The notes beneath the pieces were generated by a model, which had not been told where the DNA came from, ran no database searches, and saw only the letters and a list, made by a program, of their open reading frames with translations. A stretch of DNA of 37,304 bases. Source: Chloroflexota bacterium. Lineage in GTDB: Bacteria > Chloroflexota > Limnocylindria > Limnocylindrales > CSP1-4. Positions within the stretch are counted from its first letter, which is position 1; each line of letters opens with the position of its first letter. Shown piece by piece: positions 4,399-23,437 of this stretch. A program made the position numbers and the translations under genes. The DNA is taken from positions 1 to 37,304 of the forward strand of contig PLMA01000060.1 of assembly GCA_003141455.1 (NCBI GenBank), given 5' to 3'.

Positions 4399-6183
4399 GT
4401 GGCCGAGATCGGACGCATGATCGGGGGCCGTTACCGGCTCATCGAGCTGCTCGGAGAAGGTACCGTGGCAACGGTCTACCGGGCGGCGGACGTCCAGCTG
4501 GACCGAGACGTTGCGGTCAAGCTGCTCCGGCCGGAGTTGTCCGGCGACCCCGACTTCCTTTCGGAGTTCCGCTGGCAGACGCGCGCGGCCGCGGCCCTCA
4601 GCGACCAGAACGTCGTCGCCATCTATGACTCCGGCACGGACGCCTCCGGCACGTACGTGATCATGGAGTACGTGGACGGGGCCGACCTGGCAACGTTGCT
4701 GGAACGAAACGGACCCGTTCCTCCGCGCAGGGCCGCGCGCGCGGCGGCGGAGACGGCGCGCGCTCTGGCTGCCGCCCACGACCACGGGATCGTCCACGGC
4801 GATCTCACCGCCCGCAATGTCATGGTCATGCGTGACGGCCACATCAAGGTCACTGACTTCGGCATCGCACGAGCCCTGGCAGCCGCCAGCGACAGCGCCC
4901 TGAACGTCAAGGAGCCGGTCGACGAGACGGCCGAGCCACCCGACGGCGAGGCTTCCCCGGCCCCACGGGTCGCGTCGAGCGAGTCTGGCGACGTAGAGGA
5001 TCTCGGCCGGCTGTTCTTCCTGATGCTGACTGGGCGTGCGCCCTGGGGAGGAGAGACGCCCGCGGCGATTGCCCTGGCCCGCCGCGCCGGTCCCCCACCC
5101 CGACCGTCGTCGCTGCGAGCGGGAATACCCGCAGCCCTGGACGAGATCGCGCTGAAGGCGCTTTCGCCCGCGCCCGAAGACCGATACGACTCGGCGGCTG
5201 CGATGGCCGAGGACCTGGAGCGCTTCATCGACGAGGATGACGCCGCCGAGGCGGCTGCGAGTGCCCCGGCCGCTGCCGCGGCGGGTGGCCTCCCCGTTGC
5301 GGCGGCAGGCGGTCTCGGAGCCGCCGGCTTCGCCGGCGCCGCTGGCCCAATCGTCCCCCAACCCGCTGCCAGCCGCGTGATCTACTCGCCGGACGCCTAC
5401 GCTACCGGACCCAGCCCGTACGACGACTACGAGTCGGGGCTCGACCAGTCGAACGGATACGCTCCGGAGCCGGCTCGCCGGCCCGCTCGCAGGACACAAC
5501 CGTCCGAGACGGACGAAGAGCTCGAACCGTCAGGCACCAGCCCATGGGCCTGGGTTGCGGCAATCCTGGCGATCCTCCTGATCGTCATCATCGCCGTGAT
5601 CGTTGTGCTGCTCTTCTCCGGCAAAGGGGCCTCGGGCGACGTCGTATACGCGCCCAATCTGGTCAGCGAGTCGTACAACCAGGCCCAGCTGGACGCGCAG
5701 CAACGCGGCCTCAGTCTCACCATCACATTCAAGCCCAACGACACTACCCAGGCCGACGGCACCGTAGTCACGCAGGACCCGGCCGCCAGCACGGCCATGC
5801 ATCGCGGCGACACGATCAACATCACCGTCCTGCAGGGTCAGGCAACGGTCTCCGTCCCGAATGTGGCCGGAATGACAGAGAGCGATGCCCGCACGGCCCT
5901 GGCCACGGCCGGACTCCAGGCCGGCGTCCGCAGCGACCAATACGACCCGTCGATTCCATCCGGCCAGGTCATCAGCACCAACCCGCGAGCTTTGACCCAG
6001 GTTCAGAAGAGCACGGCTGTCGACTACGTCGTGTCGAAGGGGCCCGCCCCAACTCCGACACCGACACCCACGCCAACCCCAACTCCGACACCCACGCCAA
6101 CCCCAACTCCGACACCGACTCCCACGCCAACCCCGACTCCCACGCCGACGCCGACGCCCGCGCCAACTCCGTCCCCCGCGTAG
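4399..6183 (+). CDS. PASTA-domain membrane protein with a degenerate Ser/Thr kinase domain
   Basis: 594 aa from a GTG preceded by AGAGGA at 6 nt. Order: cytoplasmic PknB-like domain (10-275), Ala/Pro-rich linker, one membrane segment (about 382-405), two PASTA repeats (about 414-478 and 480-546) outside the membrane, and a Pro-Thr tail. PASTA repeats of this family bind peptidoglycan fragments. Several kinase residues are altered. K41 (VAVK), D135, N140 and DFG (153-155) remain. The alphaC Glu is Q60, HRD is HGD (133-135), the catalytic-loop Lys is T137, and the activation segment lacks a recognisable T-loop and SPE/APE motif before the DVEDLG helix. It is probably a pseudokinase or a very weak kinase acting as a wall sensor or scaffold. 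It follows galU. Confidence 0.9.
6049..6180 (+). repeat. Pro-Thr coding tandem repeat
   Basis: Degenerate 6-bp CCNACN units, grouped into longer 12- and 18-bp near repeats, encode a (Pro-Thr)n tail from residue 551 of the PASTA protein to its C-terminus. Such tails are usually extended, often glycosylated, wall-spanning spacers. The tract is likely to vary in length between strains. Confidence 0.85.
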
Positions 6184-17836: not shown

Positions 17837-19189
17837 ATGCCCGGTTTCCGAGTATCCCGACGTGATCTGGCGCTGAGCGTGCCGGTTCTCGGCGCGTTCG
17901 TCGTGGGGGCGATCGCCTACGCCCCGCTGTATTGCTTCCCGCTGTTCGCACCCCAGTTCGAGAGTACGTTCCACACCTCGCGCGAGCTCGGGCAGATGCC
18001 GTGGACGATGTTCCTGCTGGTCTCGGCACTCGCGTCGCCGTTGCTGGGACGCGCCTACGATGTCTTCGCCGACCGCACCTTGCTGCTCGTGGGCACGCTG
18101 CTGCTGGCGGCAGGTTGGGCCGTGGCCTCCATGGCGACGGACGTCGCGTTTCTCATCGCCGCGTACGGCGCCTTGCTTGCGCTCGGGCTGCAGCTGATCT
18201 TCGTCGGCACGACGACGGTGATCGCACGCAGGTACGCCGGGGCCACCGGTCTGGCTCTCGGCGTGGCCTACGCGGGCCCCGGTATCGGAGTGGCGCTGGC
18301 ACTCCCCCTCGCGGCGGGTCTGATCCCGCAGCTGGGTTGGCGGTCGGCGGCGGTCGGCTTCGCCGGGCTTTCGCTCGTGGCCCTGCCTTTCGTGTGGCTC
18401 ATGACCAGCGGCTCGGCCGTTGTCGCGCGGGGTGCGGCGACGAAGGGCGCGCCCGGGGAAGGGGCGGCGAAGGGCGCAACGACCCGGGGCCTGCACGAGA
18501 CCGCAGCCCCAGGCGCCATCGCCGCCTCGCAGGAGCAGGTCCCGCCTGGCAGCCGCACTCGCCCCGACGCTCTCCGCAGGACTCTGCGAACTCGCCGCTT
18601 CCTGATCCTGCTGGTGGGCGCGGTGGGGATCGGGTGCATCGACGAGGGGATCTTCCAGACATCCTCGCGCCATGCCATCGGGCAGGGAATCGACGCCGGG
18701 TTCGCCGCAACGCTGCTGGCTCTGCAGTGCTACGCGTACGTCGCGGGCCAAGTGGTGGGCGGCGGGCTGTCGGATCGATTCGGGCGGCGGTATATAGGCC
18801 TGCTCTGCGCCGGGCTGGTCGCCATAGGTGCGACCGCCATATTTGCTTCGAACGGCTCGCTGCTGGCCCTGGCCGTCGCCGGCAACGCGCTCTACGGCTT
18901 TGGCATCGGCGCCACGATCGCGATCCGCTCGGCGGCCTTCAGCGACGTCTTCGGCGGCCACAACTTCGGAGCGATCTTCGGAGTCATCGCCGTCGCCTAC
19001 CCGGCCGGCGGGATCATCGTCATGAACTCCGGCGGCATCCTGTACGACCGGTTCGGCAGCTACTGGCCCGTGTACGGGATCGCGATGGTTTCACTGCTGG
19101 CATGGTCGGCGGCGCTGGTTGTGGCCGGGCCGCGGCGCCACGGATTTCGGAAGCGGCTTCGGAGCGCCCGGGCGCGCCTGCCGGTCTGA
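17837..19189 (+). CDS. MFS transporter
   Basis: 450 aa, about 12 membrane segments in two halves separated by a hydrophilic Gly/Ala/Arg-rich loop (about 195-250). The first-half cytoplasmic signature is degenerate (LLGRAYDVFADRTLLLVG); the second half has the clearer MFS signature GGLSDRFGRRYIGL. The C-terminal repeat contains GGILYDRFGSYWPVYG, common in the oxalate/formate-type and related MFS groups. The substrate is unknown. The gene stands alone, reading towards the ABC operon, with the structured element of 19250-19477 between the two. Confidence 0.9.
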   Translation: MPGFRVSRRDLALSVPVLGAFVVGAIAYAPLYCFPLFAPQFESTFHTSRELGQMPWTMFLLVSALASPLLGRAYDVFADRTLLLVGTLLLAAGWAVASMATDVAFLIAAYGALLALGLQLIFVGTTTVIARRYAGATGLALGVAYAGPGIGVALALPLAAGLIPQLGWRSAAVGFAGLSLVALPFVWLMTSGSAVVARGAATKGAPGEGAAKGATTRGLHETAAPGAIAASQEQVPPGSRTRPDALRRTLRTRRFLILLVGAVGIGCIDEGIFQTSSRHAIGQGIDAGFAATLLALQCYAYVAGQVVGGGLSDRFGRRYIGLLCAGLVAIGATAIFASNGSLLALAVAGNALYGFGIGATIAIRSAAFSDVFGGHNFGAIFGVIAVAYPAGGIIVMNSGGILYDRFGSYWPVYGIAMVSLLAWSAALVVAGPRRHGFRKRLRSARARLPV

Positions 19190-19249
19190 TCGGGCGAGGT
19201 GCCGAGGAGATGGGGAGCGGGCGGGCCGCGGGCCGGCCGGCACCCAGAG

Positions 19250-19477
19250 AAAGTGCTCATTACCAGCGGAGGTAGTGCTAAGTGGAAGCCACCGCACCAA
19301 GTGCGCCCGGCGCGAGCGCCAACCGACCGCCGGGTCCGCCAACTTGTCCCGGGCCACGCTCGCGTCGGGACAATTCGGACTCGCTATGCAGTGCCGCGCC
19401 TCAAGTGAGAGGTCTGGCACCCGCCTGCCCGCCGCCGATCTCCGCTTAGCACTATCTCCACTGGTAATGAGCGGTTT
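19250..19477 (+). repeat. Structured inverted-repeat element (MITE-like or non-coding RNA)
   Basis: Outer arms 19250-19286 and 19441-19477 are inverted repeats over 37 positions (32-nt core GCTCATTACCAG...). In the core only three positions differ, and as plus-strand RNA two of these become G-U pairs. Inside are four more hairpins: 19293-19305 (CGCAC/GTGCG), 19309-19320 (GGCG/CGCC), 19331-19383 (8-bp stem, small internal loop, then TTGTCCCG/CGGGACAA) and 19391-19420 (GTGCC/GGCAC with inner CCTC/GAGG). The RNA would fold as a five-way junction. No ORF of note is inside and no target-site duplication is evident. The element lies between convergent genes. Flanks 19190-19249 and 19478-19541 show nothing. 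Confidence 0.75.
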
Positions 19478-19541
19478 GTGGAGCGGCAGACCCGCGCCGC
19501 ACGCCGCCCGCGCGGCGCCGCAGAGGACCCAGCCCCCTCCC

Positions 19542-20689
19542 CTACGCCACTTCCCGCCGGATCGTGGCCGCGGCCAGCACAATGAATACAGCCGCGATCC
19601 CCGTGAGCACGGCCAGATCGAAGAGCACCTGCCCCGAGGTCAGGTCCGCACCCGCGATCATCACCTGCCGCAGTCCGTCGATCGCGTAGGTCACGGGCAG
19701 GACCCGGGCCACCGGCTGGAGGAGCGAGGGCAGCTGGTCTATCGGCCAGAAGAAGCCGCTCAGCAGGGCTTGCGGCACGATCACGATCGGGATGAACTGC
19801 AGGATTTGCAGCTCGGTCCGGGCGAAGGTCGACAGGAAGATGCCGAGCGAGACCGCACCCAATCCCAGGATCAGGACCAGCAGATACGAGATCAGGGGGT
19901 TGCCGGCTGTATGGACGCCGAGGCCGATGGCGAACGCCGGGACCGGCCCGAGCGACGGAATATCGAGGCGGCCAAGGACGAAGGCAAGGACCGTGGCCAC
20001 CTGCAGCGTAGCGAAGAAGCCGAAGCCAAGGCTGTAGCCGAGTACGATCTCCGCTCGACTGACCGGGGTTGCCAGCAGGCGTTCGAGCGTCCCGCCGATG
20101 CGTTCGCGCAGGAAGCTGATGCCGGTCAGGATGAACACGAAGAAGTAGACGAAGAAGCCGACCACCACAGGAGCGAGCGTGTCCACGGTGGTGGCGTCCG
20201 GGGAGCCGTAGACGGTCGATCGTTCGATCGACGGCAAGGCTCCGCCGAGGTTGCCCGCTACGGCTTTGAACAGAGCCTGCTGGACGTTCGGGATGACGGA
20301 AGCCTCGCCCGTGGGGTTCAAGCCGAGGGTCACCAGCTGGAGCTTGGGGCTCTGGACGGTGAAGTCGGCCGGGATGTTGACGACGAGATCGAGCTGCTTG
20401 TCCTTGAGCATCTGGCGGGCCGTCGCGGCGTCGTGGACGTCCGTATTCACCATGACGGTGGGCTGGCCCTGTAGGGCGGCCGTGAGCCGCGAGACCACCG
20501 CGGCGCTTGCCGGCTGGCTCGATTCGCTGACGATGGCGACTCTGGCCGTGGAGGCTCCCGAGCCGCTCAGGACCGCGCCGAGCAAGGCGATGACCGCAAC
20601 CGGGGCCGCGAAGAGCAGAGCCAGCGATCGTGGGTCGCGGCGGAACTGGGCGATGATCCGGCGGACGACGGCCGTCACGCGCAGGGCGC

Positions 20690-20693
<4 letters not shown>
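19542..20693 (-). CDS. ABC-2 type transporter permease
   Basis: 383 aa. The N-terminal membrane segment (about 22-43) is followed by a large extracytoplasmic domain (about 45-180) and five C-terminal membrane segments, the layout of ABC-2 exporters. The loop motif FLRERIGGTLERLLATPVSRAEI is the usual contact with the ATPase; GFFWPIDQLPSLLQPVARVLPVTYAIDGLR is the typical end signature. The ATG at 20693 overlaps the ATPase stop by 4 nt (ATGA). It forms an exporter with the upstream ATPase; drugs, lipids or peptides are possible substrates. Confidence 0.93.
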
Positions 20694-23343: not shown

Positions 23344-23433
23344 GCGTGCCCGCCGGCAGTGGCGTGGCCGCCGCGCGTGGCGTGGCCGCCGGTCGTCGCG
23401 TGCCCGCCGGCAGTGGCGTGGCCGCCGCGCGTG
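23344..23433. repeat. 18-bp tandem repeat, five copies
   Basis: Units start at 23344, 23362, 23380, 23398 and 23416 and follow GCGTGSCCGCCGSNSGTS. Copies 1-2 and 4-5 are the same pair, giving a 38-bp identical direct repeat 54 bp apart. The tract fills the gap between the start of the membrane-protein gene and the stop of the protease gene and is non-coding on present evidence. Confidence 0.85.
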
Positions 23434-23437
23434 GCCG

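Follow-up and report, generated by a model that had tools for sequence, protein, structure and literature searches.

An inverted repeat between convergent genes

The window, a 37,304-nt stretch of a genome from an uncultured Chloroflexota bacterium (contig PLMA01000060.1), carries a long inverted repeat between two convergent genes, and the question it raises is what kind of element this is. The initial annotation offered two candidates, a non-autonomous transposable element or a structured RNA in the 3' region of the upstream MFS transcript, with a chance palindrome as the fallback should there be no other copy, no covariation and no transcript. We confirmed the inverted repeat at a slightly larger extent than the 19250-19477 first assigned to it, namely 230 bp at 19249..19478 (no strand assigned), and found a syntenic copy of 229 bp in the genome G009 (G009:C30). 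The left arm spans 39 bp (19249..19287, plus strand), with the consensus GAAACTGCGCAATACCAGTGGAGGTAGTGCTAAGTGGAG over the copies of genomes G000, G008 and G009, and contains the hexamer AGTGCT twice, 22 bp apart, as had been noted; the right arm (19440..19478, minus strand) is its inverted copy, identical at 32 of 39 positions. Between the arms lies a central palindrome or core (19346..19371, no strand assigned) of a type that we designate I (GTCCCGG-N12-CCGGGAC, here with one mismatch), whose centre lies 109.5 bp from one outer arm end and 119.5 bp from the other. The convergent setting also held, with genes for an MFS transporter (17879..19189, plus strand) and an ABC-2 type permease (19542..20693, minus strand) pointing towards the element and lying outside it. 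The same window has tandem repeat arrays at 6043-6177 and 23344-23435 (periods 6-54).

A dispersed repeat family

Homologous copies are present elsewhere in the same genome (G000, a 3.07-Mb draft of 68 contigs) and in related genomes, all of them draft assemblies, which rules against a chance palindrome, and mononucleotide-shuffled sequence gave no arm pairs in 639 kb. G000 holds 11 full copies and two less certain ones (C32, located via its core, and C12, cut by a contig end). A first, sequence-only arm model was built from 21 arms, and its matches mostly fall into inward-facing pairs. The set of 31 two-arm copies comes from G000 (11), G009 (13), G008 (2), G002 (2), G006, G007 and G016; a second model (57 arms) and the reading of stretches gave 23 further pairs, including some from the genera g5 and g23, a scan for core palindromes gave 13 additional loci with at least one accepted arm, and the dnaE2 locus contributed copies in G004, G010 and G011 and a weak one in G014. 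Copies thus occur in 17 of the 21 genomes of the genus, with G014 as a weak 18th; an arm pair was not detected in G001, G013 and G018, where absence is weak evidence in that the first model leans to the G000 variant. Outside the genus, copies were found in three genomes of two genera, g5 (G036) and g23 (G082, G083).

Across the taxonomic family to which the genus belongs, 13 of 107 genomes matched the first model at E <= 0.05, and 15 of 40 matched the second at E <= 3, many of these by weak single matches. An exact-pattern scan of a contig collection returned 30 stretches, with arms recognisable at <=8 mismatches in eight, all from the Chloroflexi assemblies PMIP01 or PMKV01, and in none of the remaining 22. 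Neither phages and plasmids (blastn) nor viral contigs (two exact patterns) matched the element, and a literature search at the level of titles and abstract openings turned up no publication that we recognised as describing the family.

The elements range from roughly 130 to 240 bp in length and, as judged with a simple gene caller, are mostly intergenic; among 41 fully flanked copies 13 lie between convergent and six between divergent genes, and others lie between tandem genes or inside dnaE2. Tandem repeats abut element ends in 43 of 103 flanks of 150 bp, compared with 17 of 177 control windows that include coding DNA (examples at L117:3700-3830, L119:3400-3650 and the right flank of L107).

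Arm distances follow the helical repeat

The outer lengths of the 31 copies fall at 176, 197-198, 207-210, 218-219, 229-230 and 240 bp, such that arm distances advance in steps of 10.5-10.7 bp, about one turn of B-DNA, with a best period of 10.7 (R=0.93). Restricting the set to one copy per orthologous group gave R=0.91 (n=16), which none of 5000 random sets equalled. The same phasing was recovered out of sample, where phase and period were fixed from the 31 copies and then applied to pairs that the second model had found blind to phase: under the strictest rule, which admits top-scoring pairs only and moved the p value from ~1e-8 with partly hand-chosen pairs to 7.9e-7, the mean cosine was 0.72 at 10.6 bp (n=22) and 18 of 22 pairs lay within 1.5 bp of phase. 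Removing five orthologues left n=17 and p about 9e-6, the removal having been done by hand with some related loci remaining.

Separation of sites by whole helical turns, as in phased DNA looping, characterises the family apart from a few named cases. These are the G082 copy at 178 bp, a third arm of G008:C3 at 278 bp, a related pair of elements in G058 with 223 and 215 bp, and the dnaE2 copies of G002 and G015, whose left arm is ambiguous between ~257-258 bp (top-scoring, off phase) and ~176-177 bp. We regard these exceptions as real, and they may mark other architectures. The G058 pair, from another genus (L276, G058:C26:43500-50900), carries several arm-like motifs by eye and lies out of the main family's phase.

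The central palindrome shares the register

Among 54 copies, 18 carry a second core type, II (GTTAGCC-N6-GGCTAAC, <=3 mismatches), and 11 carry type I, with two copies fitting both types and 27 fitting neither. In 18 of 18 cases about 82, 93, 103, 113 or 124 bp separate the type II centre from the outer ends. For type I, seven of the 11 centres fall at about 98.5, 109 or 119.5 bp, and the other four, which are out of step, are probably chance fits.

The converse search was an independent test and started from 16 loci for which a type II palindrome was the sole evidence, the complete set of their kind among 28, with arms sought over 60-170 bp on each side. The score rule was passed by 25 of 32 sides, comprising both sides of 12 loci and one side of another, and the accepted sides lay at 81.5-82.5, 92.5-93.5, 102.5-103.5, 112.5-113.5 and 144.5 bp (R=0.955, reached by none of 20000 random sets). 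The seven rejected sides were the right side of G017:C39 and both sides of G020:C169, G002:C3 and G006:C38. The threshold used, -5, is more permissive than the 95% null of -2.6, and one accepted side scored between the two (G015:C143 right, -4.6). Because a blind search for the best palindrome gave centres that were scattered in many copies, we restrict the claim of a phased core to the two named types.

Arms are constrained while the interior drifts

For all 11 full G000 copies a syntenic partner was assigned in G009, nine by a shared flanking protein, C36a by its position in dnaE2 in both genomes, and C33a by DNA alignment alone. The arms of these pairs are identical at 748 of 856 positions (87.4%), the interior at 1200 of 1530 (78.4%), and fourfold-degenerate sites in 13 flanking gene pairs at 1953 of 2491 (78.4%). 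Because arm identity exceeds that of fourfold sites (p=4e-9) whereas interior identity equals it, the arms are under constraint and the interior drifts at a neutral rate. Interior length is nearly constant all the same, with 34 gap columns of 1564, 21 of which are a single indel of two helical turns (G000:C42 against G009:C79, 219 vs 240 bp); the flanks are 63.5-65.8% identical with 16-21% gap columns.

Orthologous copies also bear on the reading as RNA, whether as a structured RNA or as a bidirectional terminator in the 3' regions of convergent genes. The fold that the initial annotation predicted for the window copy is indeed very stable (-131 kcal/mol for the plus strand of 19240-19490, z -6.8, equalled by none of 200 shuffles), with the arms paired around interior hairpins, and the window copy as well as the 13 convergent cases among the 41 flanked copies sits where such an RNA or terminator would be expected. 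The minus strand of the window element, however, is about as stable as the plus strand. Across 12 copies folded on both strands, z ranged from -1.8 to -9.5, the number of hairpins varied from 2 to 5, and the minus strand was the lower in eight. Single arms (57, without shuffle control) fold at a mean of -8.6 kcal/mol. The proposal that plus-strand folding is selected had drawn on three differences in the arm core, and two of these do keep G-U pairing on the plus strand, but the third keeps it on the minus strand; overall, 44 of 195 arm differences are wobble-compatible on the plus strand and 45 on the minus strand. The check for compensatory change came out against RNA structure as well, since of 104 arm pair positions that changed between orthologues only four are compensatory, 47 going from pair to mismatch and 33 from mismatch to pair.

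Cognate arms, the two belonging to a single copy, do match each other somewhat better than non-cognate ones (26.8 vs 24.0 of 39; 16 groups, permutation p 0.0002), a point in favour of pairing that could instead reflect shared ancestry within arm variants; the advantage is seen in G000 (27.3 vs 25.3, p 0.011) but is missing in G002/G015 (24.6 vs 26.0). At the Rfam gathering score the window yields only a tRNA and no match to the element, copies also occur between genes in tandem, between divergent ones and within dnaE2, and helical quantisation is not expected of an RNA. On the compensation counts, the symmetry between strands and the variable hairpins, we judge an RNA or terminator role very unlikely, and the structured-RNA candidate of the initial annotation goes unsupported.

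Species variants, dnaE2 copies and turnover of sites

Arm sequences come in species-specific variants. A classifier of arm variants in dispersed copies separated G000, G009 and G008 from G002, G015 and G007 for 68 of 68 arms, in a leave-one-out test eased by orthologous copies in the training set. Copies at the orthologous dnaE2 site follow the variant of their own species in all four testable cases (G000 and G009 in the first group, G002 and G015 in the second), an argument that amounts to one contrast, G000/G009 against G002/G015. The dnaE2 copies of G003 and G006 resemble the first variant, the dispersed copies of these two genomes lying outside the training set, and at the place where G000 carries C42, the copy in G002 is of the G002 variant.

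Within dnaE2 the element occupies a linker, which in the 21 genomes holds a copy in G000, G002, G003, G004, G006, G009, G010, G011 and G015, a weak one in G014 and one arm in G020. Every dnaE2 copy has a length divisible by 3. Linkers without a copy are short (120-369 nt) in G018, G013, G012 and G007 and long (858-945 nt) in G001, G017 and G019; G008 has none over the available stretch, and G005 and G016 could not be scored. The linker itself (L112 (G000:C36), L123, L131, L206, L210, L229, L277-L305) is of low complexity and varies from 120 to 1116 nt between species in which both anchors were found, several having an in-frame element.

Presence of the element at individual loci varies on a species scale. 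The permease next to the window element was matched in 15 genomes of the genus, with the element there only in G000 and G009, and at the MutM locus (20 genomes) a strong element is present in G000 and G009 and a weak pair at 175 bp in G002; these patterns indicate that sites are gained or lost between species. One copy, G009:C100, shares 95% identity with C79 across 286 bp and looks recently duplicated from it, which points to some mobility. By eye, a direct repeat of ~29 bp brackets this copy together with its surrounding tandem repeats (L117:3330-3900), which could be the mark of repair or of a long duplication of the target. Another, G009:C85b, is 80.6% identical to C85a and was not found at the corresponding position of G000, around which the two genomes do not align cleanly.

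In four genomes, the last ~43-69 residues of an HTH (XRE-type) protein are encoded by the element (L104:2795-3640, L116:1072-1860, L124:3502-4290, L220:866-1723), and the protein has a possible nuclease-like D-E-K motif by eye. As a candidate binding factor it was set aside, its link to the element being positional, in that the 3' end of its gene overlaps one copy.

Weighing mobile, regulatory and recombination readings

The transposable-element candidate survives in part: the family is dispersed, but we found neither a transposase-bearing copy nor a regular target duplication. A MITE-like non-autonomous element moved in trans would have dispersed copies, inverted ends and lineage-specific presence, it could account for the two G009 copies for which no G000 counterpart was found, and it resembles the element in being short and mostly intergenic. 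If its transposase needed both ends on the same helical face, only in-phase lengths would ever have moved, and copies would then decay in place; we hold this reading, helical requirement included, to be possible but rather unlikely. The arms of orthologous copies evolve more slowly than neutral, as under purifying selection acting where they sit, dnaE2 copies share their arm variant with the dispersed copies of the species, and the core, where present, is phase-locked too, none of which is typical of MITEs, and neither is helically quantised length. At the outer ends an A/T triplet takes direct orientation in some copies and inverted orientation in others, with no regular target duplication by eye, and the single empty-site comparison did not align cleanly. 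Among the arm matches listed, no convincing pair encloses a gene-sized stretch and no transposase-bearing full-length relative shares the ends, in draft genomes where other arm variants may escape the models. An apparent 4.3-kb inward pair in G058, considered as an autonomous transposon, proved to be two separate short elements (223 and 215 bp).

The in-frame copy in a gene would also suit a mobile element, since Rickettsia palindromic elements, as an excerpt of PMC10969869 describes them, have copies in frame inside protein genes. Compared with that excerpt (PMC10969869), the present element differs in being mostly intergenic, its in-frame copy being one orthologous dnaE2 site shared by several species. 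Its coding cases comprise that copy and the 3'-end overlap with the HTH gene, so that an in-frame location is not its usual one.

Regulators that loop DNA typically do so through phased sites, and the species-specific arm variants suggest a trans-acting factor, both of which would fit a dispersed operator set for a looping regulator. We give this only a small chance: the 20 G000 proteins near copies share no functional theme in a Pfam scan, six of the 41 copies with both flanks have divergent neighbours, and one set is inside coding sequence. A recombination site of the lambda attP type, in which arm-type sites flank a core for a tyrosine recombinase (GTTAGCC-N6-GGCTAAC), would explain why the core has a 6-bp spacer and why the arms on either side of it keep helical register; with no integrase domain among the same 20 proteins (Pfam), a core type that varies and 27 of 54 copies showing none, its chance is smaller still.

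Among known systems, REP sequences and REPINs are short stem-loop units tagged GTAG or CGTC and associated with a RAYT transposase. The element resembles REP/BIME and REPIN sequences as a dispersed extragenic inverted repeat, and its G000 arm consensus contains GTAG, but it differs by paired 39-bp arms at whole-turn spacing and by the about a dozen copies detected per genome (G000, G009). Lambda attP, the Hin/Fis invertasome and the lac operators keep separated sites in helical phase for bridging. The element shares this arrangement and differs from them as a dispersed family instead of a single locus, with a partner protein that is putative.

A putative bridged DNA site and its meaning

Quantised spacing, constrained arms, a spacer that drifts at fixed phase and species-wide arm variants are together better fitted by a bridging protein than by an RNA or a decaying transposon. 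We therefore consider it somewhat probable that the element is a DNA site maintained by selection, at which a putative protein bridges arms and core. A DNA-binding protein, or a pair of them, would occupy arms and palindrome along a single face of the helix, and such bridging would make the intervening 130-240 bp form a loop or a wrapped complex, so that the spacer sequence could drift freely while its length could change only by whole helical turns. Sites over the chromosome, mostly between functionally unrelated genes, would be kept by selection in step with the binding protein. Counting against a bridged site are the 27 of 54 copies that match neither core type, the four type I fits out of step, the lineage-specific presence, the off-phase pairs, the mobility of C100 and the advantage of cognate arms.

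As for its role, we infer that the element most likely serves the architecture or topology of the chromosome; the occurrence of sites between convergent genes and within coding sequence makes regulation of individual genes a less likely role. It is possible, and we propose it tentatively, that the family represents a previously undescribed class of chromosome-organising site, in which dispersed arm-palindrome-arm copies at whole-turn spacing are read by a lineage-specific bridging protein and all sites change in concert with it, even one that lies in frame within the gene for an error-prone DNA polymerase. If so, a dispersed three-part class would be added to the known chromosome-organising DNA sites, and the helical periodicity of repeat lengths would offer a simple general test to tell repeats bound by protein apart from decaying transposons and from RNA elements. 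The quantised spacing and the arm variants would make the binding protein traceable, by pull-down or by matching protein changes to the variants, and the geometry of a nucleoprotein complex would have been revealed by sequence alone in a group represented here solely by environmental assemblies.
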